Below, one piece after another: positions 27,190-45,430 of a DNA stretch of 64,000 nucleotides. The stretch lies in assembly GCF_000184745.1 (NCBI RefSeq), contig NC_014931.1, positions 5,580,001-5,644,000 of the forward strand. Direction: 5' to 3'. A model generated the notes under the pieces. It worked only from the letters and a program-made list of their open reading frames with translations, searched no databases and was not told the origin of the DNA. This stretch comes from Variovorax paradoxus EPS (GTDB taxonomy: Bacteria; Pseudomonadota; Gammaproteobacteria; Burkholderiales; Burkholderiaceae_C). Position 1 is the stretch's first letter. The number at the start of each line of letters is the position of its first letter. Both the position numbers and the translations under genes were made by a program.

Positions 27190-27227
27190 CCGCCGCGTCC
27201 TTGTATCGACCAAGCTGCAAGAACATC

Positions 27228-28189: not shown

Positions 28190-28199
28190 TAAGGCCAAT

Positions 28200-30320
28200 A
28201 TGCATTCAATTTTTCCTAGACCTAACACTCGCAGCTGCCGGCAACGTGGTTCCGTGCTGGTCAACGCAGTTATCGCATTGAGCCTGATCGTGATAGTTCT
28301 GATCGGCAGCGAGCTAGGTTATCTGTTTTATCTGAAACGGGAGTTCCAGAAGTCGGCAGACCTCTCTGCGCTCGCTGGTGCGCAGGCGCTCGTTCCGGAC
28401 AACTGCACAAGTGCGACGGCCGCAGCTATTGCCAATGCATCGCAAAATCTTCCGAGTGGATTCCAAATGACCGCAGCAGATGTAGTCTGCGGTCGCTGGG
28501 ATCCAGAGAACCAGCCATCTCCGAGGCATTTTTCGCCGGGCATGCAGCCATTCAACGCGGTCAGTGTGTCCATACAGAGAACGCCTCCCCTTTTGCTGCC
28601 AAGCCTTCCCGGCAATCAACCCCGGGTTCTCTCGCTTGAGGCCTTGGCTGCCAAAACCGATCCTTCCGCCGCATTTTCCGTTGGCTCCAGACTGCTTCGA
28701 TTGAGCGGCGACTCGACGCTTGGTGCTTTGCTGAAAGCCATCGGACTCAATCTGGACAATACGATCGTTGCAGGTTACGAGGGCTTGGCAACGGTTTCGA
28801 TCACGCCTGGGGGCTTACTGTGCACTCCACCTCTTGAGGCCGTTGTCTGCCCCGCAGCCAATATCACGGTGGGCGGATTGAACGATCTGCTGAACAACAA
28901 TGTCACGCTGGGGCAATTGCTGGATGCAGTGGTGGTCGCCGGCGGCCACAATGAACTGCTGGGGGCGAACGTAGCACTCATCGACGCACTCAAGGCCAAG
29001 CTGGGGGTTCAGAATCTGAATCTGCAGCTTGGCTCCGCAAACAGCAATTCGGGGCTATTTGCGCTAATCAGCACACAGAGCGCCAACTCGGCATTAGATG
29101 CAAAGATCAATGCGCTAGACCTGATTCAAGCGGCAATCGGCATCGCATCTGAGGGGCATGCAGTTAATGCCGCACTACCGGTCGATCTATTAGGATTGGT
29201 GACGATATCTTCTAAGGTTGGCATTGTGGAGCCCCCTTCGATCGCTATCGGATCGAGGGGCATCACGGCCTATACCGCGCAAGTGCGCACGTATATTCAA
29301 ATACAAACTAGCGGGGCGCTGGCCGCACTGGTGAAACTGAATCTACCTATCGTGATCGATCTGGTAACCGCGACGGCGAAGCTAGAGGAACTATGTACGC
29401 CTGCGCTGGTTTCTTCGACTGGAAAGCAGAGAGCGTCGTTCGATGTGCAGGGCACCATCCTCAAAGGATGTATCGGAAAAATAGCGAACAGCACTGGAAC
29501 CCAGGATTGCTCTTTAGCAGCTAGCGATGCAAAGCATCAAGCGTGTCTTGATAACTTGTTGTTCTCCAAGAAAGATGCTTGCGAGCAGAACCTGTACGAC
29601 ACGGAATTGTTAAATGTCCTGGGCTTAGCTAGAACCACTAACAGTACCTCACTGAATGTTCTACCGCTTCGTGAACCAACGCTCATCGTTCTCGAGGAGG
29701 GGCAGACCGGAACCGCCGGCAACGAGTTGTCCGTTGGCGCAACGGTTATCAATTTGGTCAACACGATTTCAGACCTCCTGTTTACCGCCCCGCCACCCCC
29801 GACGGACGCTGCGACGGCAGCTGCCCAAATCTGGGCAGCAACCGGCGATTCCGTTGCGAATGGCGGCGCCGGTTGTACAGCCGACACCACTGCGTGCCGA
29901 GAAAAGCGGCTGAAGAACGCACGACAACGGATCGAAGCCAATGCTGCGCAAAGCGGATTGATCGATGGCCTACTAACCGGCATCGGCGATCTGCTAGGAG
30001 CAGTCGGGGGCATCGCTGCTGGTGATGGCTGTAGTTACACGGGGTTATTGGGTGGCGTGCTCAACCCTACCTCCAATTCAAAGTGCATCAAGCTTATCGA
30101 GGGCACTCTCAATAAAAATTCTCCCTCTCTTCTGGGCGGCCTTGTCTCAAATGTTTTGGCAGTGGTTACTGGGCTTCTCAAGCAGCTCCAGCCAGTACTT
30201 GACGCGATCGGAAACAGCTTATTGACTCCATTGCTCCGAGACTTGCTCGGTATTCACTTGGGTGAAGTAGATGTCAAGCTCCAAACTCTTCAATGCAACA
30301 ACGCCCAACTGGTCTATTAG
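28200..30320 (+). CDS. tadG: TadG-like pilus-associated protein with large exported domain
   Basis: The 706-residue protein begins with the TadG-type N-terminus (QRGSVLVNAVIALSLIVIVL, then YLKREFQKSADLSALAGAQAL). The transmembrane helix leaves a periplasmic or surface domain of about 650 residues. That domain is rich in Leu, Asn and Thr with short repeats (LNLDN, LLGLVTISSK, LLNNNVTLGQLLDAV). It may be a minor tip or anchor component. No VWA domain is evident, unlike some TadG proteins. It is the last gene of the pilus run. Confidence 0.85.
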   Translation: MHSIFPRPNTRSCRQRGSVLVNAVIALSLIVIVLIGSELGYLFYLKREFQKSADLSALAGAQALVPDNCTSATAAAIANASQNLPSGFQMTAADVVCGRWDPENQPSPRHFSPGMQPFNAVSVSIQRTPPLLLPSLPGNQPRVLSLEALAAKTDPSAAFSVGSRLLRLSGDSTLGALLKAIGLNLDNTIVAGYEGLATVSITPGGLLCTPPLEAVVCPAANITVGGLNDLLNNNVTLGQLLDAVVVAGGHNELLGANVALIDALKAKLGVQNLNLQLGSANSNSGLFALISTQSANSALDAKINALDLIQAAIGIASEGHAVNAALPVDLLGLVTISSKVGIVEPPSIAIGSRGITAYTAQVRTYIQIQTSGALAALVKLNLPIVIDLVTATAKLEELCTPALVSSTGKQRASFDVQGTILKGCIGKIANSTGTQDCSLAASDAKHQACLDNLLFSKKDACEQNLYDTELLNVLGLARTTNSTSLNVLPLREPTLIVLEEGQTGTAGNELSVGATVINLVNTISDLLFTAPPPPTDAATAAAQIWAATGDSVANGGAGCTADTTACREKRLKNARQRIEANAAQSGLIDGLLTGIGDLLGAVGGIAAGDGCSYTGLLGGVLNPTSNSKCIKLIEGTLNKNSPSLLGGLVSNVLAVVTGLLKQLQPVLDAIGNSLLTPLLRDLLGIHLGEVDVKLQTLQCNNAQLVY

Positions 30321-30411: not shown

Positions 30412-31842
30412 ATGACACTGTCCCCCACCCATTTCGACGAACTCGACCTCTTTGTCTGGGAAGGCAAAGCCGACATCCTTGACCGCATCGCGCGGTGCAT
30501 GGCGAGCTTCGACGTGGAAGTCACACGGGCCGATGGCCTGCCGCCTCCGCAGCAGGAGCGCGGCGTGGCGATGCGGCCTGCGGTCGCGATCATCAGCGTC
30601 ACGGTCATCGACAGCGGCGGTCTCGCGCACGCCACCGAGTTCCTCCAGGGCATGCCGGTGATCTGGGTGGCCGCGGGTTCGCGCGAGCGCGATTCGCGCA
30701 CCTATCCGCCCGAGTACCTGCACGTGCTGCCCTACGACTTCACCTGCGCCGAGCTGCGCACGCTGGTCGCGAAGCTGGTGCGGCAACTGCGCGCGCGCGA
30801 GATCGCGCCGCAGGCACCCGATGTGCTGGTGGCGCATTCCGAAGCGATGAAGGCGCTGCTCGCCGAAGTGGGCGCCTTTGCCGACTGCAACCATCCGGTG
30901 CTGGTGCGCGGCGAAACCGGCGTGGGCAAGGAGCGCATCGCGCAGCAGTTGCACCTCGGGCATCAGTCGTACAGCAAGGGCGCGTTCGTGGCAGTGAACT
31001 GCGGCGCGATTCCCGATGGGCTTTTCGAATCGCTGTTCTTCGGCCACACGAAGGGCTCGTTCACCGGCGCCGTGCATGCGCACCGCGGCTACTTCGAACA
31101 GGCCACGGGCGGCACGCTGTTCCTCGATGAAATCGGCGACCTGCCGCGCTACCAGCAGGTGAAGCTCTTGCGCGTGCTGGAAGACAACGCGGTCACGCGG
31201 CTGGGGGCCACATCGCCGGTGCGCGTGGACTTCCGGCTTGTGGCGGCGACCAATCGCAACCTGCGCGAGATGGTGGCGAGCGGCGAGTTTCGCGCCGACC
31301 TTTTCTATCGGCTCGCGGTGATCGAGCTGCATGTGCCGAGCCTCGAAGAGCGCGGCGAGGTCGACAAGATCGCGATCTTCAAGGCGCTGCTGGGCAACGT
31401 GCTCGGCGACGAACTCGAGACGCTGGGCGAAACGCCGCACTGGCTCAGCGACGCCGTCGCTGAAACCTACTTCCCCGGCAATGTGCGGCAGTTGCGCAAC
31501 CTCGCGGAGCGCGTGGGCGTGATCGCGCGGCAACTGCGCGGCTGGGACCAGAACCTGATCCAGCGCGCCATCGCACTCACGCGCGGCACGCCGGCGCCCG
31601 CGATCGCCGCCGACAGGAATGGCGGCGGCGGCAGCAGTGGTGGTGTCGCGCTCGACAGCAACGGCGATCGCAAAGGCTGGAACAGCAGCGAGCGCAACCG
31701 CATCATTGCGGCGCTGGAGGTCAACGACTGGAAGCGCCAGGACACCGCGCAGCATCTGGGCATCAGCCGCAAGGTGCTGTGGGAAAAGATGCGCAAGTAC
31801 CAGATCCTGGACGGCGAACCCGGCATTCCTGAAGACACTTGA
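30412..31842 (+). CDS. Sigma-54-dependent activator, VpsR/FleQ-like degenerate receiver type
   Basis: The 476-residue protein has an N-terminal domain of about 125 residues that looks like a receiver without a clear phosphorylation Asp. A central AAA+ domain follows, with Walker A GETGVGKE (167-174), a GSFTGA loop (215-220; consensus GAFTGA) and Walker [13 protein letters not shown]. The C-terminus is a Fis-type helix-turn-helix ([20 protein letters not shown], then [13 protein letters not shown]). This is the layout of VpsR and FleQ, which regulate biofilm matrix, pili or flagella and often sense cyclic di-GMP. It sits between the tad operon and the type I secretion locus, and sigma-54-like promoters precede both flp and the repeat-protein gene. 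Confidence 0.92.
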
Positions 31843-32197: not shown

Positions 32198-33775
32198 TCA
32201 GCGTTCGGCCAGGCGCGGTGTGCGGCGCAGCGGTGGATTGGCACTTGCGGCACCCGGCGAGCGTTCGACCACGGGCTCGGTGGGGCAGGCCGAATTGCTC
32301 GAGATGCACATCTGCGAGAGCAGGCCGTCTTCGGTGATGACCGCGCGGTTCGGCGGGCCGAAGATGCGGTCGATCCAGTTGTTGGTGCCGTCGGGGTCGA
32401 TGCGCAATTCGCCGGTGGTGCGCGCGAGGCGCAGCTCGGAAATGCGCAGGTCGAAGACGCCGTCGACGTAGTCGAACAGGAGCGTGTAGTAGTCCAGCTG
32501 CGCATCGAGCACCTTGGGCAGCGTCTCGCGGCCGAATTCCATCAGGCGGCGACGGCCGCGGAAGGCCAGGCCCGAGGTGCTGACGGCTTCCATCAACTGC
32601 TTCTCGCGCTCGCGTCCCGACATGGTGCGGGCCCATGACGCCGAGGTGAGTTCGAAGAGGTTGTTCCGCACGCCTTCGAGCTTGGCTTCCTGGTTGGCGA
32701 CTTCGGAGAGCGCGCCCTTCAGTCGCAGTTGGCGGTCGAAGCCGTTGCCGAAGTTCCAGTTGAGTTCGAAGGCCGCGCGCGTCGGGTCCTGCGGCGACAC
32801 GCCGCGCGGGTCCTTGCTCTTCACGACCACGGCGTCGAGCGTCGGGTAGAGGCTGGACTCCTGCTGCTCGACCAGCGCCCTCGCGCGATCGATGCGGCCC
32901 TGCGCTTCGGCGATCTCCGTGCTGCGGCTCTCGGCGCGGCGCAGCGCCTCGTCCTGCGAGCCGATGCGCCACTGCAGCGGCGCCGCGAGCACGGGCAGCG
33001 ATTCGGTGTTGGGCGTGAACTTGAAGTAGTTGCGGAACTTCGCGAGCGCCTCGTCGCGCTGGGCTTCGAAGTCGGACTCGCGCGCAGCCACGAGCGCGCG
33101 GCGCGAGGCGGCCATGTTGAGGTCGTTGTCGCCGGACACGCCGAGCGCGACGCGGCGCGCTTCCGCCTTCGAGAGCTCGGCCGTCACCTCGGTGGCGCGG
33201 TGCGCGATCTGCTTCTTCAGGTCGAAGCGCTGCACCTGGAGGTAGGCGGTGAGCGCGTCCAGCACCACCTTCTGCGAGGTGGTGATGACGGCTTCGTCGT
33301 CGGCCTTGTTGCCGGCCTCGGCGGCGCGCTGCGCGGCGCTCATGGCACCGCCATCGATCAGGCTCACGCGCGCTTCGGCGGTGAGCACGGTGTAGCCCTG
33401 GGTCTTGGCGTTGTCGGCGCCGCTGTTGTAGTTGCCCGACGAGGTGCCGATCTTGAAGCGCGGATAGCGCGCCTGCTTGGCGGCATCGACGCTGTAGCTG
33501 CTGGTATTGGCGGCGGCCTGGGCCGACTGCACCTCGGGGTATTCCTGCGAAAGCGCGATCAGCGCCTGCTTCACGCGCTGCGCGTAGCTCGCAGCGCCGA
33601 GTGAGGGCGTCGAGAGCCGGCGCGAGAGCGAAAGCGATGGCGGCGGGCCGTCTTGTTGTCCCGCGGCGTCCTGCGCAAAGGCGGCCTGCGGCGGCAGCGC
33701 GAAGCTCGCGCACAGTGCTGCGCACAGCACCCCGGTGCCCGTGCGGCGCCGGCTTGTGGCGTTGCGCTCCTTCAT
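32198..33775 (-). CDS. TolC-family outer-membrane channel of type I secretion
   Basis: The 525-residue protein has a signal peptide (GVLCAALCASFALPPQAAFAQ) and two OEP repeats rich in long amphipathic helices (ALIALSQEYPEVQSAQAAAN and later AEAQGRIDRARALVEQQESS). Beta-barrel strands lie at YPRFKIGTSSGNYNSG and AAFELNWNFGNGFDRQ. It should be the outer-membrane tunnel for the exporter. ATG 33775 overlaps the hlyD-like stop (ATGA). The C-terminal 45 residues are a Pro/Ser/Arg-rich periplasmic tail. Confidence 0.9.
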   Translation of the reverse strand: MKERNATSRRRTGTGVLCAALCASFALPPQAAFAQDAAGQQDGPPPSLSLSRRLSTPSLGAASYAQRVKQALIALSQEYPEVQSAQAAANTSSYSVDAAKQARYPRFKIGTSSGNYNSGADNAKTQGYTVLTAEARVSLIDGGAMSAAQRAAEAGNKADDEAVITTSQKVVLDALTAYLQVQRFDLKKQIAHRATEVTAELSKAEARRVALGVSGDNDLNMAASRRALVAARESDFEAQRDEALAKFRNYFKFTPNTESLPVLAAPLQWRIGSQDEALRRAESRSTEIAEAQGRIDRARALVEQQESSLYPTLDAVVVKSKDPRGVSPQDPTRAAFELNWNFGNGFDRQLRLKGALSEVANQEAKLEGVRNNLFELTSASWARTMSGREREKQLMEAVSTSGLAFRGRRRLMEFGRETLPKVLDAQLDYYTLLFDYVDGVFDLRISELRLARTTGELRIDPDGTNNWIDRIFGPPNRAVITEDGLLSQMCISSNSACPTEPVVERSPGAASANPPLRRTPRLAER

Positions 33776-35103
33776 GGTTCGCGGAAGGCTTCGCGCCGCA
33801 ACTTGAGCACTGGACGAAGGATGTACCAGATGAACGGATCGGTGCCTACGCGCAGGTCGACTTCGGACTCCATGCCGGCGGTGATGCGGTTTTCGACACG
33901 GCCCACATGCGACTGCGACATGCTGATCAGCAGGCGGTAGTACGGCGCGCCCTGGGCGATGGCCGCGTCGCGATCGGCGTCGGCCGCGACCAGCATCACC
34001 TTGCCTTCGACAGCGCCGTAGCGCAGGTAGTCGTAGGCGGTGATCTTCACGCGCGCCGACTGGCCGATCTCCACGAAGCCGCGGTCGTTCGGATTGAGCC
34101 GGGCCTCGACCATGATCTCGTCCTTGTCGGGCACCACTTCGAGAATCGATTCGCCGGGCTTCACCACCCAGCCCGGGCTGGAATTGCGCAGGCCCTTGAC
34201 GATGCCGTCCGAAGGCGCCTTCACCACGGTGCGCGAACGCTGCGTGCGGGCGCGTGCGAGGTCTTCGCTCAAGCTGGCGAACTGTCGCTCGACGGTGGCC
34301 AGTTCGTCCGAGGCGCGGCGGCGAAAGCGTCCTTCGGCCTCGGCCATCTTGGCTTGCGATTCGGTGATGGCGGCGTTGGCCGAAATCACGCCTTGGCGCG
34401 CCACCGCGAGTTCGCTGCGCACGCCCTCGGCCTGGCGGCGCTTCTCCAGCACCTCGACCTGGCCGACCAGTTTCTCGCTGAACAGTTGCTCGGAGATCTC
34501 GAGCTCTTTCTGCATCAGCTCGAGCCGGTCGCTCAGGCCCTTCACCTTGGCTTGTTGCTCCAGTTGCTTGCTGCGTGCCTGCTCCAGGCCCGACACCGCG
34601 CCGGCCATCACGCCGCGCTGTTCGAGCGAGCGCGCCTGGTAGGCGCCGAGTTCGCCTTCGAACACGCTCTCGTCGATGTCGGTGGCAAAGGACTGGCGGC
34701 TGAGCGGCTGGCCGCGGCTCTCGGCCATGAGGCGCACGCGCGTGGCCTGCGTGGCGGCGTACCGCGCGGTGAGTTCCTCGAAGTTCAGGCCGCTGCCGCC
34801 CAGGTCGATCTCGACCAGCGACTGGCCCTGCTTGACCGATTCGCCCTCCTTCACCAGCACGGCGCTGACGATGCCGCCTTCCAGATGCTGGATGGACTTG
34901 ACGCGGTCCGAGGGGATCACGCGGCCCGGCGCGACGACCACGGTTTCCATCGGAAAGCCGAGGCCGACGAGGGCCAGCACGGCGACCGCGCCGCCGATGA
35001 TCCATTGGCGCCGCCGCCCTTTCGGCGAGGTCTGCGCCGCGCGCTTGGTTTCTTCATCCTGAAGAATCTGCGGCAGGTCTGATTTCAAGTTCACGATCCC
35101 CAA
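33772..35103 (-). CDS. HlyD-family type I secretion adaptor
   Basis: The 443-residue membrane-fusion protein has a cytoplasmic N-terminus of about 32 residues and one transmembrane helix (WIIGGAVAVLALVGLGF). A lipoyl half (GRVIPSDRVKSIQHLEGGIV, EGESVKQGQSLVEID) and a long coiled coil (residues about 170-290) follow. The end contains RLNPNDRGFVEIGQSARVKI. The SIQHLEGGIV motif is diagnostic for the type I secretion HlyD/PrtE group. It bridges the ABC protein and the TolC-like channel. Confidence 0.95.
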   Translation of the reverse strand: MGIVNLKSDLPQILQDEETKRAAQTSPKGRRRQWIIGGAVAVLALVGLGFPMETVVVAPGRVIPSDRVKSIQHLEGGIVSAVLVKEGESVKQGQSLVEIDLGGSGLNFEELTARYAATQATRVRLMAESRGQPLSRQSFATDIDESVFEGELGAYQARSLEQRGVMAGAVSGLEQARSKQLEQQAKVKGLSDRLELMQKELEISEQLFSEKLVGQVEVLEKRRQAEGVRSELAVARQGVISANAAITESQAKMAEAEGRFRRRASDELATVERQFASLSEDLARARTQRSRTVVKAPSDGIVKGLRNSSPGWVVKPGESILEVVPDKDEIMVEARLNPNDRGFVEIGQSARVKITAYDYLRYGAVEGKVMLVAADADRDAAIAQGAPYYRLLISMSQSHVGRVENRITAGMESEVDLRVGTDPFIWYILRPVLKLRREAFREP

Positions 35104-35131
35104 TCACTCGTCATGAGTCAAGCAGGCAGCA

Positions 35132-36946
35132 TCACGCCATGGAGCGGGAAGCCGGAGCCCCCGCGTTGTCTTCGTCGCCCACCGCCACCAGCGGCTTCTT
35201 CACGCCGAAGAGCTTGGGCACCATGACCGCGGCGGTGCCCACTTCGATGTCGCCCTGGCCCGTCACGTGGTAGACCGCCGAGGCGGCCGAGACGATGCGC
35301 AGCGAGTGCGTGACCACCACCACGGTGCGCACCTTGGCCACCGCGAGCAGCGTGGCGAGCAGGTTGCGCTCGCTCTGAAAATCCAGGTCGTTGCTGGGCT
35401 CGTCGAGCACCAGCACCGAGGGCTTGCGCAGGAAGCTCATGGCCAGCGCGAGCTTGCGGCGTTCGCCCACCGAGACGCCGGTGCCGCCCTCGCCGACCAT
35501 GGTGCGGTAGCCGTCGGGCAGCCGCGAAATGAATTCGTGCGCGCCCGAGAGCTTGCAGGCCGAGACGATCTGTTCATCGCTCTGGCCGGGCGCGGCGCGG
35601 CGCATGGTGTCGATCAGCGTGCCGCCGAACCAGTAGACCTCTTGCGAGAGGTAGCTGATCCAGCGGGAGAGCTCTTCGCGGCCGAACTGCGAGAGGTCGT
35701 ACTCGCCGATGCTGATGATGCCGCGCGTGGGCGTGTAGAGACCCGAGAGCAGCTTCACCAGCGTCGACTTGCCCGCGCCGTTGCGCCCGACGATCACATG
35801 CAGGCCGCCCGGGCCGATGTCCAGATTGACGCTTTCGAGCACCGGCTGCTGCGCGGTCTCTGTGAAGCTGAAGCTCACGTCCTTGAGCGTGATGCGGCCG
35901 AGCGGCTGCGGCAGGGTCATGCCCGTGGGCGGCTTCTCGACCGGCTCGCCCAGCACGGTTTCCAGGCGCTTGGCGGCTTCCTTCGCGGTGGCCAGCGAGC
36001 GCCAGTTCGACACCAGCCCGGCCACCGGCTGCAGCGCCTTGAGCGCCAGCATGTTGGAGGCCACGAGGCCGCCCACCGTCATCCATTGCTCCATCACCGA
36101 GATGGCGCCCACGGTCACCACGACGACCGAGAACACGGTGAGCAGCACCGTGGTGCCGTCGCGCGCGGTTTCGATCTGGCCGTTCTTGCTGAAGCTCTCG
36201 GTGAGCCAGGCGTTGTAGGTCTGGCGCCACATGTCGCTGATGGGGCCGTCGTTGGCCTGCGTCTTGAGCGTTTCGCGCGCGTTGCAGATCTCGAAGGTCA
36301 TGCGGTCGAGGCCGCGTCCGCGCTGCACTTCTTCCACGCGACCGGCGCGCACTTCGTCGGCCCACCACCAAGCCAGGAACGACATGATCGCGAGGAACGC
36401 AGCCACCACCGGCAACACCGGCAGCGCGACGATGCCGATCACCACGAGCGCGAAGACGGCCATGGGCAGGTCGAAGATCGATTGCGCGAGGCCGCCGGTG
36501 ACGGTGCCGCGCACCGAGCCCACGTCGCGAAAGTACTGCTGCCACACCGAAGCCGGCCGCGCTTCGAGCGCGCGCAGCGGACGCGCGAGCATCGATTGCA
36601 ACAAGGCACCCGAGACACCGTGGTCGATGATCGCGCCCGCGTTGCGCAGCATGCGCGAGCGCCGCGTGCGCAGCCAGAACTCGATGCACAGGAAGAAGAG
36701 GATGCCGCTCACCAGCGCGGCGAGCGTGGAGGTGCCGCTGCGCGAGAGCACGCGGTCATACACCTGCAGGAGAAAGATGGAGGGCAAGAGCCCGAACAGG
36801 CTGATGGGCAGCGAGCGCCATGCCGCGCTCTTCACGAGCGGGTAGGCCGCGCGGAACGCCGTGTTCAGCGCCTTTGCGTAAGGACTGGCACCCGGCTCGT
36901 CCGGCGTTTCGGCAACCAGTTGGCTGGGCAAAAGAAACTTGATCAT
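35132..36946 (-). CDS. Type I secretion ABC transporter (permease-ATPase)
   Basis: The 604-residue half-transporter has about five hydrophobic spans in residues 45-285, then an ATPase domain. Walker A is GRNGAGKST (387-395) and Walker B is VLVLDEP followed by SNDLD. The signature position reads GVSVGERRK (490-498) instead of LSGGQ, an unusual substitution. There is no N-terminal C39 peptidase or C39-like domain, so cleavage of a leader is not expected. The nearest likely substrate is the repeat protein at 41129-45430. The gene has its own 91-bp upstream gap with two GTAAC sites. Confidence 0.92.
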   Translation of the reverse strand: MIKFLLPSQLVAETPDEPGASPYAKALNTAFRAAYPLVKSAAWRSLPISLFGLLPSIFLLQVYDRVLSRSGTSTLAALVSGILFFLCIEFWLRTRRSRMLRNAGAIIDHGVSGALLQSMLARPLRALEARPASVWQQYFRDVGSVRGTVTGGLAQSIFDLPMAVFALVVIGIVALPVLPVVAAFLAIMSFLAWWWADEVRAGRVEEVQRGRGLDRMTFEICNARETLKTQANDGPISDMWRQTYNAWLTESFSKNGQIETARDGTTVLLTVFSVVVVTVGAISVMEQWMTVGGLVASNMLALKALQPVAGLVSNWRSLATAKEAAKRLETVLGEPVEKPPTGMTLPQPLGRITLKDVSFSFTETAQQPVLESVNLDIGPGGLHVIVGRNGAGKSTLVKLLSGLYTPTRGIISIGEYDLSQFGREELSRWISYLSQEVYWFGGTLIDTMRRAAPGQSDEQIVSACKLSGAHEFISRLPDGYRTMVGEGGTGVSVGERRKLALAMSFLRKPSVLVLDEPSNDLDFQSERNLLATLLAVAKVRTVVVVTHSLRIVSAASAVYHVTGQGDIEVGTAAVMVPKLFGVKKPLVAVGDEDNAGAPASRSMA

Positions 36947-36969
36947 GAGAAAGGGCCGATCCGTCGTGC

Positions 36970-36987
36970 AATGACGCGTGCGTCATT
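36970..36987. promoter_or_regulatory. 18-bp palindrome upstream of the ABC exporter gene
   Basis: AATGACGCGTGCGTCATT is a perfect 8+8 inverted repeat around a 2-bp centre. It lies 24 bp upstream of the exporter ATG (36946), where a repressor site or a short leader hairpin would act. Confidence 0.5.
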
Positions 36988-36994
36988 ATCGACT

Positions 36995-37010
36995 GTTACC
37001 CAACTGTTAC
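36995..37010 (-). promoter_or_regulatory. Two GTAAC half-sites upstream of the ABC exporter gene
   Basis: ACTGTTAC occurs twice, 11 bp apart (GTTAC at 36995-36999 and 37006-37010), about one helical turn on the same face of the DNA. On the transcribed strand these are GTAACAG. They match the half-sites upstream of flp and the repeat protein. No good sigma-54 promoter is visible between them and the start codon. Confidence 0.4.
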
Positions 37011-37037
37011 AAGGCAAAAATTCGCGCTTTGTGCACC

Positions 37038-37340
37038 TCAGCATCGAGGCACGCTTGCCTTTGTCGAGTCGACCTGTCGCTCATGTCTCGTCACATGTCC
37101 CATCTCATGTTTCGCGTCGCGTCGCGATGACGTTTGCGTGGCCGTGCAGCCGGCCTGCCGGTCCACCGTCGCCTCCCCTCGCACTGCGGGCAAACCCTCG
37201 GCCAGCACCAGCGCGATGTTGGCGCACAACAGCATGCACAACACCCATGCGAACAGCAGTTGCAGCCAGCCAAGCCACCAACGCCGCGGCGCCTCCACGT
37301 CGCGTTCGTAGGGCATGTGAATCAATGCGTTCCATCTCAT
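37038..37340 (-). CDS. Small single-span membrane protein coupled to the Mur-like fusion
   Basis: ATG 37340 overlaps the TGA of the Mur-like gene (ATGA), so this 100-residue product is very probably translated. The N-terminus is MRWNALIHMPYERDVEAPRR. One hydrophobic helix, WWLGWLQLLFAWVLCMLLC and following residues, spans the membrane. The C-terminal 55 residues are polar and basic. Its role is unknown; the coupling suggests it anchors or assists the Mur-like protein at the inner membrane. Confidence 0.6.
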   Translation of the reverse strand: MRWNALIHMPYERDVEAPRRWWLGWLQLLFAWVLCMLLCANIALVLAEGLPAVRGEATVDRQAGCTATQTSSRRDAKHEMGHVTRHERQVDSTKASVPRC

Positions 37341-40300
37341 GGCAGTGCTTTCAAAACCCGGGCAAGCCGGGACAGGCCGACGCCCGCGGAACTCTTGGCC
37401 AGCACCCAGTCGCCCGGTTGCAGCAGACCGCCCAATGCGGTCGACAGGTCCGACACATCCACGAACCAATGTGAACGGACCTTGGTACGAATGCTTGCGT
37501 GCAGCGCCCGCATGAGCGGACCGCACAGCAGCACCCGGTCGGGCTGCGACGCCAGCAACTCGGCTTCCAGGTCGAGGTGATGGCGTTGCGCCGCAGGACC
37601 CAGCTCCTGCATGTCGCCGAGGATGGCGACACGTCGCGCAGGTTCGCAGGGGGCTTGTGACAGCAATTCGAGCGCCGCCCGCATCGAGCTGGGGTTGGCG
37701 TCATAGGTTTCATCGATCAGCTTGAAGCTTCCGCCGCCGATGTGAATGGTGTGCAGCGCACCGCGTCCGCCCGGTGGCTCGAAGTGCGCGAAGGGCTCCA
37801 CCGCCGCGGCCAGCGGCAGGCGCAGCGACTGCAGCGCGCCGAGCGCGGCCACGGCGGCGGCGCCCATGTGGCGGCCCGGCGCGTTGAGCCGCAGTTGAAA
37901 GGGCTCGCCCGCCACCTGCGCCTGCACCTCGCCGTGGTCGAAGGCCAGGAGGCGCACGTCGGCGTCCTCGTGCTCGCCGTAGGTCACGATCTGCAGTTGG
38001 TGCGCCGTCGCGGCTTCCGCAAAGATCGGGAACTCGGGCATGTCGCGGTTGAGCACCACGTTGTCGCCGGCGGCCATGCCCTGGAAAATCCGCGCGTCCA
38101 TGCGCGCGGCGGCGTCCGAGGGACCGCGGTGCTTCTGCGATGCGGCCGAGAGCCCGGTCACCACCACCAGCGAAGGCCGCACCAGTTGCGACGACGCGGG
38201 CATGTGCGAGGTGCCCATCTCCAGCACCCAGTAAGCCGCATGCCGCGGCATGCAGGTGAGGTTCCACGCAATGCCCGAGGGCAGGCTGATGTTGCCTTCG
38301 GGCTGGCCGACCTCGCCCCACACGGTGAGCGCGCCGGCCATCATCGCGGCCACGGTGCTGCTGCCCGTGCCGTGCCCCAGCACGCCGCAGACGCGGCCGG
38401 TGAATTCGGTGCGCGCATGCTCGCCCAGTTGCAGCACGGCCTGCAGCACGTTCGGCACCTTGAGCACCGGCACGCGCTTGTCCAGGTGCGGCTTGGGGTC
38501 GGTGCACAGCACGGCCGCGGCCGGCTGCAGCACGCCCTTGAGCGTGACGGCCGCGAGCGGCGTCTTCGACGGGCGCGTCTGGTTCTCGAACACCACGCGG
38601 CCCTTGCGCATGAAGGAGCGCTGCGTCACGCCGCTCGCGCGCCAGCCGTCTTCGGGGCGCACCACCCATTCGCCGCCGGTCACGCGCGCCATTTCGCTCG
38701 CGGTCCAGCTCGCGCCGTCGTCGCGCGGGCTGCTGGCGGCGCCGCTCATCGCGCCCAGCGGCACGCGGCGCTCGATGAGGTAGCGGTGGTACGACGCGAA
38801 GCCCGAGACGTACTGCTCCACGTCGTCGATGCGCACCCGAAACGCGTGGTGGCGAATGAAGAACGAGCCGACGACGGTGGACGGCCGCCGGAAGTACATC
38901 GCCATCTCCGGCCAGAAGAAGCCGTTGAGGAGATAGTGCGCGCGGTAGTCGAGCGCGCGGTAGAACTTCTCGGTGTCCAGCTCGTCGAGCAGGTGCCGCA
39001 TCGCGGGCATGCTTTCCAGGCGCTGGAGCATCTGCTGCGCGGCGAGCATGAGCCCGAGCAAGGTCGGGAAGGTGGTCTTGCGGTCGAGCACGAAGTCCAG
39101 ATAGCCCGCGACGTTCTGCAGCCCGAAGCGGAAGTACTTTTCCTGCGGGCTCCAGTGCGTGAGCTCGTTGACGCAGCAGCTCAACCAGTGGTCGTGCGCC
39201 TGCCAGTGCTGGCTCGCGATGAAATGATCGAAGGCCTTCTCGACCGCCGCCAGCCAGCGCGCATCGCGCGTGAGGCCGTAGAGCCGCATGAGGCCGTAAG
39301 CCGCCTCGCCGTCGTAATAGATGACGCGCGACGCCTGCTTCACCGCGAGGTCGGTGGCGTGCAGCACATGGTTGAAGCGGCCGGTGGCCGGGTCCTGCAG
39401 CGACACGATGCCCAGCGCCAGCTTCTCCAGCAACGGCAGCCAGCGGCGCGTGTCCATGAGCTCGCAGTACTTCACCAGCGCGAGCACGCAGGCCGCGTTG
39501 CCGCCCAGCTTGATCTCCCCGCCGGTGTCGACAAGAAAAGCCACCTCGCGGCCGTCGGCGAGCTGGTAGTCGCGGATCAGCCAGTTGGTGAGATGGTCGA
39601 GCGCGCGGTCGATGGCCGAGCGCAGGGTTTCGTCGCGCGTGACTTCCCACGCCTCGAGCATCGCGTGGATCGCGCTTGCATGGCGCATCGCGTCGTAGGT
39701 CGGGATGCGGCGGTCGAAGCACGGGAAGTAGCCGTACACGAAGAGCCCGTCGCTCTGCACCTGGCGCGCGAGGTAGGCCGAGCCGCTGCGCACGAGGTCC
39801 ATCGCCGACTGCGGATTGAGCGCCGGCATCTGGCGGCGCCCCGCATCGAGCCCCGTGCCGATGAGCTTGTGCACCACGCCGTCGGGCTGGCAGAAAACAC
39901 CCACGGTCGCGAGCAGGTAGACCGGGTGGTCCGTCGGCATGTCGAGCGCGAGCGTGCGCTGGAAACGCGCCTGGCCGTAGGCCTCGAAGTTGCGCGGGTT
40001 CATCACCGCATGCGCAACGGTCGAGTCGCCCGCGAGCATCGCGTTGGCGTTGAGCTCCTGCTCGGTGAAGGCGATCTCGAAGTCTTTGTCGAACGCCAGG
40101 CCGAGACGGAAGTAGTTGCGCTTGACGGCGGTGAGCTGGGTCTTGAACTGCGCCCAGTCCATCGGGCTCGCGCCCTCGACCCAGTCGATGCGAAGCCAGG
40201 GCGACACGACACCGTGGTCGCGCACCCAGCGCTCGACGATGTCGGCGCCTTCGCTCCATGCGGTCTCGAACGCGGCGGCCCGCGCATGCACGACGTGCGC

Positions 40301-40423
40301 ACGCTGCGAACCGTCGCTCACCGAGAAGAACAGCGTGAACGCGGGGTAAGGCGCAGGCAACGCCGCGCACACCGACGCAAGGCGTTCGTGGCAGGCGTGG
40401 AGCTGGTCTGAAAAGGACATCAT
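37337..40423 (-). CDS. Alpha-toroid / Mur-ligase-like fusion protein, 1028 aa
   Basis: The protein has at least two parts. Residues about 200-520 show repeated helix pairs of the (alpha/alpha)6 toroid kind (MRHASAIHAMLEAW, LGGNAACVLALVKY, YYDGEAAYGLMRLYG), as in sugar-active enzymes and epimerases. Residues about 640-1028 resemble MurF. The MurF substrate-domain pattern is present as LIDETYDANPSSMRAAL (about 903-920) and AILGDMQELG (about 934-943), and the central VLEMGTSH and VVLNRD are also there. The ATP loop reads GVLGHGTGSST (about 680-690) where MurF has GxxGxxGKTT, and the usual carbamoylated Lys position is Arg/Met. So either the ligase chemistry is lost or ATP is bound differently. 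No signal peptide is seen. It lies in the secretion operon, between the OmpA lipoprotein and the exporter. Confidence 0.8.
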   Translation of the reverse strand: MMSFSDQLHACHERLASVCAALPAPYPAFTLFFSVSDGSQRAHVVHARAAAFETAWSEGADIVERWVRDHGVVSPWLRIDWVEGASPMDWAQFKTQLTAVKRNYFRLGLAFDKDFEIAFTEQELNANAMLAGDSTVAHAVMNPRNFEAYGQARFQRTLALDMPTDHPVYLLATVGVFCQPDGVVHKLIGTGLDAGRRQMPALNPQSAMDLVRSGSAYLARQVQSDGLFVYGYFPCFDRRIPTYDAMRHASAIHAMLEAWEVTRDETLRSAIDRALDHLTNWLIRDYQLADGREVAFLVDTGGEIKLGGNAACVLALVKYCELMDTRRWLPLLEKLALGIVSLQDPATGRFNHVLHATDLAVKQASRVIYYDGEAAYGLMRLYGLTRDARWLAAVEKAFDHFIASQHWQAHDHWLSCCVNELTHWSPQEKYFRFGLQNVAGYLDFVLDRKTTFPTLLGLMLAAQQMLQRLESMPAMRHLLDELDTEKFYRALDYRAHYLLNGFFWPEMAMYFRRPSTVVGSFFIRHHAFRVRIDDVEQYVSGFASYHRYLIERRVPLGAMSGAASSPRDDGASWTASEMARVTGGEWVVRPEDGWRASGVTQRSFMRKGRVVFENQTRPSKTPLAAVTLKGVLQPAAAVLCTDPKPHLDKRVPVLKVPNVLQAVLQLGEHARTEFTGRVCGVLGHGTGSSTVAAMMAGALTVWGEVGQPEGNISLPSGIAWNLTCMPRHAAYWVLEMGTSHMPASSQLVRPSLVVVTGLSAASQKHRGPSDAAARMDARIFQGMAAGDNVVLNRDMPEFPIFAEAATAHQLQIVTYGEHEDADVRLLAFDHGEVQAQVAGEPFQLRLNAPGRHMGAAAVAALGALQSLRLPLAAAVEPFAHFEPPGGRGALHTIHIGGGSFKLIDETYDANPSSMRAALELLSQAPCEPARRVAILGDMQELGPAAQRHHLDLEAELLASQPDRVLLCGPLMRALHASIRTKVRSHWFVDVSDLSTALGGLLQPGDWVLAKSSAGVGLSRLARVLKALP

Positions 40424-40543
40424 TCGGCCCCGATCGAGTGCGGGAGACCGGCCGCGTCCGTCATCTATCTGCTCTCGCTGCTAGAACGACGGAATCGCTG
40501 ACCGGAGACTGTTGCCTTCGACGTCATCGCTTGGGCTCCGGTT

Positions 40544-41047
40544 TCAGCGGTAGCTGAATTCGGCGCGGCGATTGAGCTGGTAGCCCTCCTCGGTGGTTTC
40601 CATGGACGCGGGCTTTTCGATGCCCCAGCTGATGGCCTCGACACGCTCGGCCGGGACGCCGAGCTGCGTGAGCGCCCGTTGCACCGACTCCGAACGGCGC
40701 TGCCCCAGCGCGAGGTTGTATTCGCGGCCGCCGCGCGAGTCGGTGTGGCCTTCGATGACCACGCGGCTCGTCGAGCGGTTCTTCAGGAAGCTCGCATGCG
40801 CTTCCACGATCCGCTGGTCCTGTGGACGGATGTTGTATTTGTCGAAGTCGAAATACACGATCTTCGGCACGCCCGCCGGGCCGTTCTGCACCGCTGCCGG
40901 AGGCGGCGGCTCCACCTTGGCGACCGCGGCCGCGCCCTTGTTCGAGTAGTAGTAAGTCGCGTCGTCGCGGCCGCTCTTGGGCGTGCTGCAGGCAGCGAGG
41001 CTGGCCCCGAGGGCCACGATGGCCAATATCCGGAAATTCTTTTTCAT
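40544..41047 (-). CDS. OmpA-family peptidoglycan-binding lipoprotein (Pal-like)
   Basis: The 167-residue lipoprotein has the lipobox SLAAC (ILAIVALGASLAACS). An OmpA/Pal domain follows, with the peptidoglycan-binding pattern VVIEGHTDSRGGREYNLALG (Asp and Arg ligands for diaminopimelate) and NRRAEFSYR at the end. It tethers the outer membrane or a surface structure to the wall. Its place directly after the repeat-protein gene, across an 81-bp gap with a strong hairpin, suggests it serves that locus rather than the Tol-Pal system. Confidence 0.9.
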   Translation of the reverse strand: MKKNFRILAIVALGASLAACSTPKSGRDDATYYYSNKGAAAVAKVEPPPPAAVQNGPAGVPKIVYFDFDKYNIRPQDQRIVEAHASFLKNRSTSRVVIEGHTDSRGGREYNLALGQRRSESVQRALTQLGVPAERVEAISWGIEKPASMETTEEGYQLNRRAEFSYR

Positions 41048-41061
41048 ATCGATCCTTTCGC

Positions 41062-41088
41062 GGGACAGGCCGGTGGCCGGCCTGTCCC
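41062..41088. terminator. Perfect 12-bp hairpin between repeat-protein and OmpA genes
   Basis: GGGACAGGCCGG (41062-41073) and CCGGCCTGTCCC (41077-41088) form a perfect stem with a 3-nt loop. There is no T run, so it may be a partial terminator or an mRNA-stabilising structure that lowers downstream expression after the abundant repeat protein. Confidence 0.7.
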
Positions 41089-41128
41089 TGTGCTGCGGTT
41101 TCCCTCTCTCCTTCGCTTGCTCTTTTGC

Positions 41129-44100
41129 TTAACCCAACAGGCCGTGCAGGACGTTGGTCACTGGCGACAGCGTGTGTTCGACCAGGCTGGTGATCGGGGT
41201 CACGACCTCGGTCACCAGCGGGGTGACTGCGTGGTCGACGGTGTTCACCACCGTCTCGACCACCGGAGTCACCGTGCCCGTTGCGCCGGCCAGGATGTCG
41301 GTCACCGGTGCCACTGCGCCGGAAACCGTACCCGTCACCGTCGAGACGATCGGCGCGACGGTGTCCGTCAGGCCGCTTGCCACGCCGGAGATCGGCTCCA
41401 GGATGTTGGCGAGCGGGCCGTCGCTGCCCAGCACGCCGCCGAGCAAGCCACCGACCAGACCGTCCTGACCCAGCAGGCTGCCGACGAGACCGTCGTTGCC
41501 CAGCAGGTTGCCCACGAGGCCGTCGTCGCCCAGGAGGCCACCGACCAGGCCGTCGTTGCCGAGGACGCCACCGAGGAGGCCGCCGTCACCGCCGAGGACG
41601 CCGCCCAGCAGGCCGTCGTCACCCAGCACGCCGCCGAGCAGGCCACCGTCGCCGCCGAGGACTCCGCCCAGGAGGCCGTCGTCACCCAGCACGCCGCCGA
41701 GCAAACCGCCGTCACCGCCGAGGACGCCGCCCAGGAGGCCGTCGTCACCCAGCACGCCGCCGAGCAGGCCGCCGTCACCGCCGAGCAGACCGCCTACGAG
41801 GCCGTCGTCGCCGAGGATGCCGCCGAGCAGGCCGCCGTCACCGCCGAGCAGACCACCTACGAGGCCGTCGTCGCCGAGGATGCCGCCGAGGAGGCCACCG
41901 TCACCGCCGAGGACGCCGCCCAGGAGGCCGTCGTCACCCAGCAAGCCGCCGAGCAAACCACCGTCGCCGCCGAGGACGCCGCCCAGGAGGCCGTCGTCGC
42001 CCAGCACGCCGCCGAGCAAACCGCCGTCACCGCCGAGCAGACCGCCCACGAGGCCGTCGTCGCCGAGGATGCCGCCGAGGAGACCACCGTCGCCGCCGAG
42101 GACGCCGCCCAGCAAGCCGTCGTCACCCAGCACGCCGCCGAGCAAGCCACCGTCGCCACCGAGCAGACCGCCTACGAGGCCGTCGTCGCCGAGGATGCCG
42201 CCGAGGAGACCGCCGTCGCCGCCGAGCAGACCGCCCAGCAGGCCGTCGTCACCCAGGACACCGCCGAGGAGACCACCGTCGCCGCCGAGCAGACCGCCCA
42301 GCAGGCCGTCGTCACCCAGGACACCGCCGAGGAGGCCGCCGTCGCCGCCGAGCAGACCGCCCAGCAGGCCGTCGTCACCCAGGACACCGCCGAGGAGGCC
42401 ACCGTCGCCGCCGAGCAAACCACCCAGCAGGCCGTCGTCACCCAGAACGCCACCGAGGAGGCCACCGTCGCCGCCGAGCAGACCACCCAGCAGGCCGTCG
42501 TCACCCAGCACGCCGCCGAGCAGGTCGCCGTCCAGCAGATGCGCCACGCCGTCGGTGAGGAAGTCCACTTGCGTGTCCACCGCATTCAGCAGCGCCGCGG
42601 TCGTTCCCGCGCCGAGCAGCTGGTCGGCCAGCGGGCTCACGAGGCCGCTCACACCGTCCGTCACCTGGTCCACCACGCCGTCGACCGGGTCGAGGACGTT
42701 GGGGTTGTTCGGGGTGAACACGTCGCCGAAGATCGGCGCCAGCAGGCCGTCGACCACGTCGGTGACGTTGTCGGTGAGGCCGACCACCGGGGTCAGCAGG
42801 TCGCCGAGGCCCAGGTCGCCGAGCACGCCGTTGTTCAGGCCGCCGACGATGCCGCCCACGATGCCGTCGGTCGGATCGAGCAGCGCCGGACCGCCAGGGG
42901 TGCCGGGGTTGCCGATGCCGCCCAGCACGCCGCCGAGCAGACCGCCCAGGAGGCCGTCGTCGCCGAGCAGGCCACCGACGATGCCGTCGTCGCCCAGCAG
43001 GCCGCCGGCCAGGCCGTCCGGTCCGAGCAGGCCACCGACCAGACCGTCGTCGCCGAGCAGGCCGCCGACGATGCCGTCGTCGCCCAGCACACTACCGAGG
43101 AGGCCGTCGTCGCCGAGCAGGCCGCCCACGAGGCCGTCACCGCCGAGCAGACCGCCGACCAGGCCGTCGTCGCCGAGCACGCCGCCCAAGAGGCCGTCGT
43201 TGCCGAGCAGGCCGCCGACGATGCCGTCGTCACCCAGCACGCCGCCGAGGAGGCCGTCGTCGCCGAGCAGGCCACCCACGAGGCCGTCGTTGCCAAGCAG
43301 ACCGCCGAGCACGCCATCGCTGCCGAGGAGGCCGTCTTCACCGAGCAGGCCGCCTACCAATCCATCGTCGCCGAGCAGGCCGCCCAAGAGACCGTCATCA
43401 CCGAGGAGACCGCCGAGCAGGCCGCCGTCGCCGCCGAGCACGCCGCCCAGCGGGCCGCCTTCGCCCAGCACGCCGCCCAGGAGACCGTCTTCACCGAGCA
43501 GGCCGCCCAGGAGGCCATCGGAGCCGAGCAGGCCGCCGACCAGACCGTCTTCACCCAGCAGGTTGCTGAGCACGCCGTCTTCGCCGAGCAGACCGCCGAC
43601 CAGGCCGTCGTCGCCCAGGAGGCCGCCGAGGGCGCTGTCGTCACCGAGCAGGCTGCCCAGGAGGCCGTCCGCACCGAGCACACCGCCCACGACGCCGCCG
43701 AGCAGGCCGTCTTCGCCGAGCAGGCCGCCCAGTGCGCCGTCGTCGCCCAGCAGGTTGCCCAGGAGGCCGCCCAGCGCGCCGTCGTCGCCGAGCAGGCCGC
43801 CGACGAGGCTGTCGTCGCCCAGGAGGCCGCCGATCAGGCCGTCGTCGCCCAGGAGGCCGCCAACGAGGCCGTCTTCGCCCAGCACGCCGTCGAGCAGGCC
43901 GCCGACGAGGCCGTCTTCGCCCAGCAGCTCGCCCAGGCCGAGGCCGGCGGTCAGGCCGCCCAGCGGGCCTTCACCGCCGAGCAGGTTGCTCAGGCCGTCG
44001 GTCACGTAGTCGACCTGGCCCAGCAGCGAGCCGAGCAGCGCATCGGTCACGCCGGCGCCCAGGATGTTGTCCACGACGGGGCTGATCGTCTCGCCCAGCG

Positions 44101-45430
44101 GATCGAGGATGTTGCCCACGGCGGTGTCCACCGGATCGAACTCGTTGGGATCGTTCGGCATGAATTCGGAACCGAGTAGCGGAGCGAGCACGCTGTCGAC
44201 CACATCGGTCACACCGTCCACCACACCGGACACGGGTGCCAGGACACCGCCCAGGTTGAGGGTGTCGTCGATCGCGTCGATGGCACCGCCGACGAGGTTG
44301 TCGGCTGGATCGAGCAGGTGGTCTGCGTCGGCATCGGCGTCGGCATCGGCATCTGCGTCTGCGTCTGCATCGGCATCGGCATCTGCGTCTGCATCAGCAT
44401 CGGCATCAGCATCGGCATCTGCATCTGCATCAGCATCGGCATCGGCATCGGCATCTGCATCAGCATCTGCATCAGCATCTGCATCGGCGTCGGCATCGGC
44501 ATCAGCGTCTGCATCAGCGTCGGCATCCGCATCCGCATCGGCATCAGCGTCTGCATCGGCATCAGCGTCGGCATCCGCATCGGCATCGGCATCGGCATCG
44601 GCATCCGCATCGGCATCTGCATCTGCGTCGGCATCGGCATCGGCATCTGCATCTGCGTCGGCATCGGCATCGGCATCTGCGTCGGCATCGGCATCTGCAT
44701 CTGCGTCGGCATCCGCATCGGCATCGGCATCGGCATCCGCGTCAGCGTCCGCATCGGCATCACCGTCGGCATCGGCATCCGCATCCGCGTCGGCATCCGC
44801 ATCCGCATCGCCGCCATCGCCGATGCCAGGAACCAGGAACGGCACGCCGCTGCTGCCGCCATCGCCACCACCGCTCAGTGCGGCACCCAGTGCCGCGGCA
44901 CCCAGCGCGCCCAGCGCGAATTCGCCGAGGCCAATGCCGCTGCCGGCAGCGAGCTTCTTGGTCACGGCCAGCGCGGCTGCGTCTGCGTCGCTGTCGGGCG
45001 GGGTGACCTGCAGGTCACCGGAGGCCACATCCACATTCACTTGTTCGAGGCCGCCGGGCAGCTTGGTCGAGCCGATGGTCGCATCGGTGCCGCCGGTGAA
45101 GACGCCGGCCAGCGGCGCCTTGTTGGAAGCCGAGCCGGGGAACAGCACATTGGCGGAGCCGTCCTGCGGAACGATCACGCGGTCACCCGCGATCAGGGTC
45201 TGGTTGCCGTCCACCGGGATGCGGACACCGTCGCGCATCACGGCAGTGCCGGGCGTAGCATTGGACAATGTCCCGATGCTGGCAGGCCCGGAAGGGGCGG
45301 CGGAAGCCGCCGAACCCATCGCGGCAGGACTGCCTAGCGGGGTGACGGTGGCTTGGGCGAGAACCACAGGAGCTGCGCTGGATGCGGCAAGTCCTTCGGT
45401 CGATGCGGTCGATGCTTGTGGAGCGTTCAT
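41129..45430 (-). CDS. Giant repeat surface protein, likely type I secretion substrate
   Basis: The 1433-residue protein starts at ATG 45430, not at the longer frame from 45499, because AGAGG precedes it and the sigma-54 promoter lies just upstream. Residues about 1-200 contain a retention-module-like fold ([20 protein letters not shown], then [15 protein letters not shown]) and a Gly/Ala hydrophobic segment. An Asp-Ala dipeptide tract follows (about 207-371). A module of about 120 residues comes next, then a first Asp/Gly/Leu repeat array. A second copy of the module follows, then a more regular array with units of the [16 protein letters not shown] kind. The last 100 residues are Val/Thr-rich and end VLHGLLG. 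There is no RTX nonapeptide, Sec signal or LPXTG. The acidic repeats could bind calcium. The nearest exporter is the ABC-HlyD-TolC set in the same orientation. Confidence 0.88.
41560..42530 (-). repeat. 63-bp tandem repeat array in the repeat-protein gene
   Basis: About 15 units of 63 bp (21 codons) encode [11 protein letters not shown] followed by [10 protein letters not shown]. Several neighbours differ by only a few bases, so recent unit duplication or conversion is likely. Some units carry LVGG instead of LLGG. Confidence 0.9.
42930..43930 (-). repeat. Irregular Asp/Gly/Leu repeat array, 30-33-bp unit
   Basis: About 30 degenerate units of 10-11 codons ([10 protein letters not shown] and variants such as [10 protein letters not shown]) form the N-terminal repeat array. 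They are more diverged than the downstream 63-bp array, suggesting an older expansion. Confidence 0.85.
44318..44810 (-). repeat. Asp-Ala dipeptide tract, about 82 repeats
   Basis: About 490 bp of 6-bp repeat (GAY GCN on the coding strand) encode (Asp-Ala)n with one Asp-Gly break near the start. Synonymous codons vary from unit to unit (GATGCC, GATGCA, GACGCA, GATGCG), which points to protein-level selection rather than simple slippage alone. Confidence 0.95.

Follow-up and report, generated by a model that had tools for sequence, protein, structure and literature searches.

In Staphylococcus aureus COL, the gene of the surface protein Pls is followed directly by gtfC, which encodes a protein of 538 residues, and then by gtfD. 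According to the excerpts of PMC5230774 on which we draw for this system, GtfD alone glycosylates Pls weakly (COL) or not at all (1061) and GtfC together with GtfD does so fully, the sugars are N-acetylhexosamines most probably carried on the repeat serines, and Pls modified by GtfC and GtfD raised biofilm formation. GtfC, deposited as Q5HJU6, is not predicted to be a glycosyltransferase by CAZy, and shares 92% identity with a protein of S. aureus C75S and 69% with one of S. epidermidis (PMC5230774, same excerpts). Here we analyze a 64,000-nucleotide stretch of Variovorax paradoxus EPS (NC_014931.1:5580001-5644000, hereafter the window), in which a type I secretion locus encodes a giant repeat protein and a fusion of an alpha-toroid, an apparent relative of GtfC, to a MurF-like domain.

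Other described loci share some of these parts. In Paracoccus denitrificans, bapA lies beside its exporter genes bapBCD and encodes a protein with mostly Asp-Ala repeats (891) that depends on type I secretion and is required for biofilm; according to the excerpts of PMC5588039 it migrates on gels as if larger than its mass, and its authors could not rule out a modification. This locus differs from ours in that the words Mur and ligase are absent from the main text of PMC5588039. Two predicted glycosyltransferase genes adjoin sesJ, whose repeat contains aspartate (excerpts of PMC7403478 and PMC4850167), the DDxP proteins (PMC7730722) are a different repeat family, and PMC8561734 does not mention GtfC. 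Among the openly licensed PMC articles that our searches listed, we found no paper linking a Mur ligase with type I secretion and poly-gamma-glutamate, or with BapA and an adhesin, and none connecting the parts of the present locus.

We propose that the window contains a type I secretion adhesin locus in which the fusion modifies, or presents for modification, a stretch of alternating aspartate before export, a reading to which we assign a probability of just under 60%. The conserved actor and working part of the fusion is probably its toroid half, not its Mur half.

The toroid is a GtfC-like family

Residues 1-688 of the fusion gave no match in a Pfam scan of the window proteins at E 0.1. Modelled alone, the toroid is an (alpha/alpha)6-barrel with the fold of cellobiose 2-epimerase over residues 200-556. 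This barrel is common to AGE-type sugar epimerases and GH76 hydrolases, but the toroid is only 12-13% identical to these and carries an extra N-terminal domain of about 200 residues, and its score against the N-acylglucosamine/cellobiose 2-epimerase family NF041848 is 16 bits against a cut-off of 800 bits, leaving the fold alone in common. A fold search with the whole fusion was filled by Mur structures, and a PDB sequence search with the toroid profile returned a single weak partial match.

The alpha-toroid had been named in an earlier reading made from the DNA alone (the sequence-only reading), and its recognition as a widespread family came from the present analysis. The window toroid aligns with the staphylococcal protein P0122, which appears to be GtfC or a near-copy of it, at 33% identity over 520 columns (E 4e-114), the toroid profile matches P0122 with probability 100, and homology runs over the whole protein of about 540 residues. 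We take GtfC to be a toroid because the staphylococcal toroids match its published length, position, gene order and identity percentages (excerpts of PMC5230774). Among 47 proteobacterial toroid sequences, 94 columns are invariant, many of them charged or His. The family trait of a neighboring run-bearing repeat protein holds in the window, where such a protein is encoded two genes upstream of the fusion. The pls-gtfC-gtfD locus is similar in placing an apparent toroid-family protein beside a surface protein with Asp-dipeptide repeats; it differs in that Pls, as described in the same excerpts, is an LPXTG protein with Ser-Asp repeats and a GtfD partner, whereas the locus in the window is of the type I secretion kind, its repeats are Asp-Ala, its MurF half is dead and none of its genes encodes a glycosyltransferase.

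Public records name toroids "poly(glycerol-phosphate) alpha-glucosyltransferase" (locus L170:11776-13434 and many staphylococcal records), a name that looks to have been transferred by weak similarity. Pfam found no glycosyltransferase domain in the toroids of Listeria and of the S. aureus plasmid pWBG759. GtfC cannot simply be a Ser glycosyltransferase, because Pfam finds no such domain in three standalone or cut-out members and because the family occurs with Asp-Ala and Asp-Gly runs that are almost free of Ser.

Toroids accompany exporters and Asp-X runs

The repeat protein of the window is foremost rich in Gly and Leu (391 Gly, 286 Leu and 230 Asp among 1433 residues) and contains many LLG(D/G)DG-type repeats. 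The sequence-only reading had called it a giant Asp-rich repeat protein; giant and repetitive it is, but its acidic signature is a single run of 164 residues (208-371) with Asp at every second residue, and Ser or Thr occupies none of the 81 intervening X positions (fraction 0.0). Across loci, Asp is the constant of such Asp-X runs and the X positions are filled mainly by Ala, Ser, Gly or Thr, which suggests that the toroid recognizes or modifies the alternating Asp. Two family assignments were rejected at E 0.1: the protein has neither the NF045619 C-terminal region nor the BapA_N domain of BapA/Bap/LapF adhesins, and it has no HemolysinCabind nonapeptide repeats of RTX proteins, nor any Pfam family. 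The adhesins of relatives do have the hallmarks of the BapA/LapF type.

In the genus Variovorax, the fusion has a match in 54 of 101 genomes and the window-type ABC transporter occurs in 51. A toroid gene lies within 6 kb of that transporter gene in all 51, which argues for a link beyond chance, and within the genus the entire locus is passed on as one unit. Other Comamonadaceae keep the order repeat protein - pal - toroid(-Mur) - abc - hlyD - tolC, usually followed by an NtrC-type gene, and the N-terminal ~205 residues of the repeat protein are recognized upstream of pal in most of the Comamonadaceae loci compared.

A scan of GTDB genomes yielded 402 stretches encoding a relative, of which the best 80 were analyzed. 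The sequence-only reading had held that a fusion gene usually found far from any exporter would tell against it; among the 48 loci flanked by 7 kb or more on both sides, 44 encode a type I ABC transporter and HlyD (26 of 30 without Variovorax). In 40 of the 48 (22 of 30 without Variovorax) there is a run of 24 or more residues in which every second one is Asp. Among the other eight, L112, L113 and L115 show runs of 594, 580 and 956 residues in a longer stretch, a contig end truncates the adhesin in L086 and L101, and L103, L117 and L127 have no Asp-X run in the sequence read. Of the 30 non-Variovorax toroid genomes searched, 23 have an adhesin of family NF045619 (BapA/Bap/LapF), to which four of five scanned adhesin candidates beside a toroid belong. 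Loci outside Comamonadaceae differ from the window in gene order and strand. Pal was recognized in 34 of the 80 loci, all in Comamonadaceae genera by name. A small alpha/beta hydrolase is encoded in 18 of the 30 non-Variovorax loci with full flanks, and in Pseudomonas and Rhizobiales loci it adjoins the toroid-Mur gene (L078:13185-14075, L109:13046-14164).

The association extends to Gram-positive bacteria. A tblastn search of plasmid records found 54 with a toroid, and 15 of the 17 stretches read, which cover all ten listed genera, have a run of at least 48 residues. Proteins of the sortase type are among the run bearers, in Listeria, S. aureus, S. epidermidis (sdrF) and Enterococcus. The Listeria toroid comes immediately after an LPXTG protein whose Asp-Ala run spans 266 residues. 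On S. aureus pWBG759 an LPXTG-type repeat protein precedes the toroid and a Mur ligase (GSMGKSS) follows it, and in S. epidermidis sdrF and the toroid are followed by a convergent glycosyltransferase. No run was found in the stretches of an Acinetobacter baumannii plasmid, where a type I secretion target protein adjoins the toroid, and of a Variovorax plasmid, whose toroid groups with that of L007, an orphan type from the window's own genome.

As a control, a class-wide sample proved too thin: among 369 genomes, one has NF045619 and three, including the window genome, have a toroid. Of the other two toroid genomes, G758 encodes an exporter and a run of 420 residues, and G528 (29% identity) shows neither. 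We therefore rely on samples of Pseudomonas (around G764) and of the family of G775 (Mesorhizobium sediminum), both centered on genomes picked as toroid-bearing. Among 149 Pseudomonas genomes, 22 have an NF045619 adhesin and three a toroid, each within 10 kb of an adhesin; the runs measure 88, 184 and 384 residues in these three genomes and at most 6 residues in the sequence read of the 19 toroid-less adhesins (Fisher p 6.5e-4; 0.005 without G764). Among 190 genomes of the G775 family, eight have the adhesin, 11 the toroid and six both, the two then lying within 9 kb of each other (hypergeometric p 2e-7; 2.7e-6 without G775). A run was found in nine of the 11 toroid stretches of this family, including three distant standalone toroids beside Asp-Gly runs, and the other two end at contig ends. 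No run was seen in four adhesins that have no toroid close by (those of G1095, G1107 and G741, and the second of G956). Pooled, 8 of 9 adhesins with a toroid have a run against 0 of 23 without (6 of 7 against 0 of 23 when the centers are removed, p 1.2e-5); all these p-values are indicative only, as genomes of one genus are related and not independent.

The MurF-like half is a conserved pseudo-ligase

The C-terminal half of the fusion has the MurF fold, but it scores 178.5 bits against the curated MurF family TIGR01143, whose cut-off is 288.6. The degenerate P-loop noted from the sequence alone is borne out: the motif GHGTGSSTV departs from GxxGK[ST], whereas the genome's other MurF-like protein (L008), which we take to be its MurF, has GSNGKTTV. 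Counting loci, with some genomes present twice, the pattern is found in 0 of 44 in the Variovorax set vs 59 of 72 elsewhere. The 22 aligned Variovorax fusions have lost the Lys of the P-loop and the second Asn of HNxxN. The Lys of ARxKSxIF, kept by relatives with intact loops, is lost as well, which weighs little because the genome's own MurF also lacks it. An ordinary MurF or a MurF duplicate is ruled out by catalytic positions and family scores: compared with MurF (UDP-MurNAc-tripeptide:D-Ala-D-Ala ligase), the fusion has lost the P-loop and another catalytic position, is joined to a toroid and falls below the family cut-offs. Cyanophycin synthetase was likewise rejected, the fusion lacking the combination of an ATP-grasp and a Mur domain.

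Despite these losses, the MurF-like half is strongly conserved, with a ratio of nonsynonymous to synonymous substitution rates (dN/dS) of 0.127, and 0.033 in the C-domain. Because ATP-binding residues are lost while purifying selection is strong, this half likely binds or positions something and no longer ligates. It also appears dispensable, because the same locus in relatives (G007, G056, G017 and G307, Comamonadaceae) has a toroid standing alone, with the Mur half absent. We suggest that it is a former partner ligase whose ATP-binding residues were lost in the Comamonadaceae clade, and that the dead domain would bind the Asp-X stretch or a small ligand. A chain of the plastid-encoded RNA polymerase (8r6s_Q), which appeared in the fold search and which we take to be a MurE-like protein without ligase activity, is likewise a Mur-ligase-like fold within another machine, and has no common context with the fusion.

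Toroids change partners

Partners of the toroid recognized by Pfam, fused or adjoining, are a Mur ligase, CapA and Mur, CapA, a GT4 glycosyltransferase, a methyltransferase, or none. GT4 is fused to the toroid in Klebsiella michiganensis and in G122; the K. michiganensis fusion (L120:10001-13138) lies beside an Asp-Ser-rich BapA-type adhesin. In Methylobacter, a toroid-methyltransferase fusion (L060:9998-13327) neighbors an Asp-X run of 422 residues. Mapping the partner labels onto a tree of 115 toroids requires 25 changes against a minimum of 3, which indicates that partners were repeatedly gained, lost or swapped; the tree was made by a quick method, contig ends affect some labels, and L060 is mislabelled as Mur. 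In the four glycosyltransferase-partnered loci with a run, Ser or Thr fills 0.92-1.0 of the X positions. The median fraction in 85 Mur-labelled loci, many of them Variovorax near-copies and at least L060 wrongly included, is 0.01, and these runs are mostly Asp-Ala with exceptions. A strict rule pairing Mur with Ala and glycosyltransferase with Ser was rejected, being broken by L010, L020, L026, L051, L052, L061 and L174.

The window's own genome holds two further toroids. One is a 1592-residue toroid-CapA-Mur protein with an intact P-loop, GKSS (L006:8088-12866), a candidate synthase of a poly-amino-acid or surface polymer; no Asp-X protein was found in the 19 kb read around its gene. The other is a standalone 567-residue toroid (L007:5664-9784) in an apparent operon with kinase-like (APH) and NTP-transferase genes, and the 18 kb read around it gave no Asp-X protein either.

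Organization of the locus

The seven minus-strand genes, with the exporter genes for ABC, HlyD and TolC among them, were confirmed at 32198-45430 as first described (Table 1). Several had been said to overlap: the genes share an ATGA at two of the six junctions (37337-37340 and 33772-33775), and gaps of 28-120 nucleotides separate them at the other four. Assignment to type I secretion is based on ABC, HlyD and TolC being encoded together, HlyD scoring above its family cut-off and ABC and TolC below theirs.

Table 1. Features of the toroid-MurF-like locus of V. paradoxus EPS, in window positions
Feature	Position	Strand	Match or remark
Giant repeat protein, 1433 residues, likely type I secretion substrate	41129..45430	-	no Pfam family
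Asp-X run (nearly all Asp-Ala), 164 residues, residues 208-371	44318..44809	-	
Pal-like OmpA lipoprotein	40544..41047	-	PF00691 E 5e-23; TIGR02802 126.1 bits vs cut-off 125.35
Toroid-MurF-like fusion, 1028 residues	37337..40423	-	Mur_ligase_M and Mur_ligase_C in residues 689-1012
Toroid half of fusion, residues 1-553, GtfC-family	38765..40423	-	33% identity to P0122; fold match
MurF-like half of fusion, residues 575-1028, pseudo-ligase	37340..38701	-	
Degenerate P-loop of fusion, residues 683-694	38342..38377	-	
100-residue protein, one apparent membrane stretch (by eye)	37038..37340	-	ATGA overlap with fusion
Type I secretion ABC transporter	35132..36946	-	best NCBIfam TIGR03375, under its cut-off
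HlyD-type membrane fusion protein, TTG start	33772..35103	-	TIGR01843 316.4 bits vs cut-off 208.65
TolC-type outer membrane protein (Pfam OEP)	32198..33775	-	PF02321 E 1.3e-31; ATGA overlap with hlyD
NtrC-like regulator (named by eye), beyond tolC	30412..31842	+	kept beside most loci compared

Pfam at E 0.1 found no C39 peptidase in the ABC transporter and no match for the 100-residue membrane protein, which in the comparison across Comamonadaceae was recognized in Variovorax loci only. The NtrC-like regulator may have a role in this locus. TadE/TadG-like genes (by eye, 26743-30320) adjoin it, and tadG and NtrC matches adjoin the locus in many of the Variovorax loci fetched. Elsewhere in the window, an ALIL pseudoknot (RF01497, 115 bits) lies at 2982-3098; this element is usually the frameshift signal of IS3-type elements.

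Interpretation

In the mechanism we propose, the toroid would act on the Asp-X stretch inside the cell, modifying it or enabling its modification, after which the repeat protein would be exported in one step through ABC-HlyD-TolC and would function as an adhesin of the surface or of biofilms. Type I exporters draw their substrates straight from the cytoplasm, and the fusion, which has no obvious signal peptide by eye, is most likely cytoplasmic; any action on the run would therefore precede export. We infer that the window fusion acts on the Asp-Ala run. The earlier suggestion that the fusion acts on the exported repeat protein is thus upheld as a functional tie, given the exporter in 44 of 48 loci and Asp-X runs across secretion systems, but with the toroid, in place of the MurF half, as the probable actor.

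Several points weigh against this reading. The membership of GtfC in the family is judged from its length, gene position and identity percentages and not from its own sequence, and GtfC alone gave no detectable glycosylation of Pls (excerpts of PMC5230774). In the excerpts consulted, ClfA and other Sdr repeats of S. aureus are glycosylated by SdgA/SdgB. The published Ser-linked sugar cannot be the modification in the window, because its run has no Ser or Thr at X, and Pfam found no glycosyltransferase among the seven genes. Asp-X runs do not accompany the toroid in every case: of 155 toroid loci, 113 have a run of 10 or more pairs in the sequence read, many of the 42 others being short contigs, and no run was seen in eight of 11 toroid-CapA loci, in the orphan Variovorax toroids, in L103 or in the A. 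baumannii locus. In the controls, where relatedness already tempers the statistics, seven of the 19 toroid-less Pseudomonas adhesins were read in part (three exceed the 20-kb stretch, three lie at contig ends and one is a fragment), and three of the four others compared (G1095, G1107 and the second of G956) are pieces cut at contig ends.

A broader version of our proposal, which we hold tentatively and at well below even odds, is that the toroid is a general enzyme of Asp-X repeats that targets Asp. The toroid, or a coupled ligase, glycosyltransferase or methyltransferase, might then decorate hundreds of Asp side chains or their neighbors in Gram-negative and Gram-positive bacteria, giving polymer-like modified stretches that in part resemble cyanophycin, with the Variovorax ligase now a pseudo-ligase subunit.

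Alternatively, the toroid and the dead Mur half may only bind, as a chaperone or docking factor that passes the acidic low-complexity stretch to the exporter with no covalent change. A binding role predicts what is seen in the Mur half, which has lost its ATP-binding residues and yet has a dN/dS of 0.127; there are standalone toroids that have no member of the partner families beside them, and the inactivity of GtfC by itself (PMC5230774, excerpts) fits as well. However, the barrel is the fold of sugar epimerases and GH76 hydrolases, its 94 invariant columns are shared by 47 proteobacterial sequences, and its partners elsewhere belong to catalytic families (Mur ligase, GT4, methyltransferase), so that we consider binding alone rather unlikely.

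It is less probable still that the enzyme builds or remodels a distinct polymer of the cell surface, a poly-amino-acid or a polysaccharide, to which the adhesin binds or with which it is merely co-regulated. The toroid-CapA (PGA_cap)-Mur fusion and the toroid operon with kinase-like and NTP-transferase genes, found in the same genome with no Asp-X protein in the stretches read, speak for such a polymer, but it predicts neither the tie to Asp-X proteins across type I and sortase systems nor the split among adhesins within one genus. That the MurF-like half joins amino acids to the side chains of Asp by its own activity, or links the protein to precursors of peptidoglycan, is very improbable: neither the Lys of the P-loop nor the second Asn of HNxxN remains, and relatives of Variovorax have the locus without a Mur half. 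Ordinary Mur-type ligation by the fusion is not supported. We give next to no weight to a fusion merely co-inherited in the operon with no role for the repeat protein, since, despite block inheritance within Variovorax, the toroid recurs while exporters, gene orders, strands, partner domains and even secretion systems vary, and Pseudomonas runs occur in 3 of 3 toroid genomes against 0 of 19 without.

For the family as a whole, our reading that the toroid acts on Asp-X stretches means that one group of proteins, often accompanying Asp-X repeat proteins across phyla and secretion systems, is a concrete suspect for their modification. Within Comamonadaceae, the fusion makes it possible to trace how a ligase turned into a conserved pseudoenzyme and was later lost.

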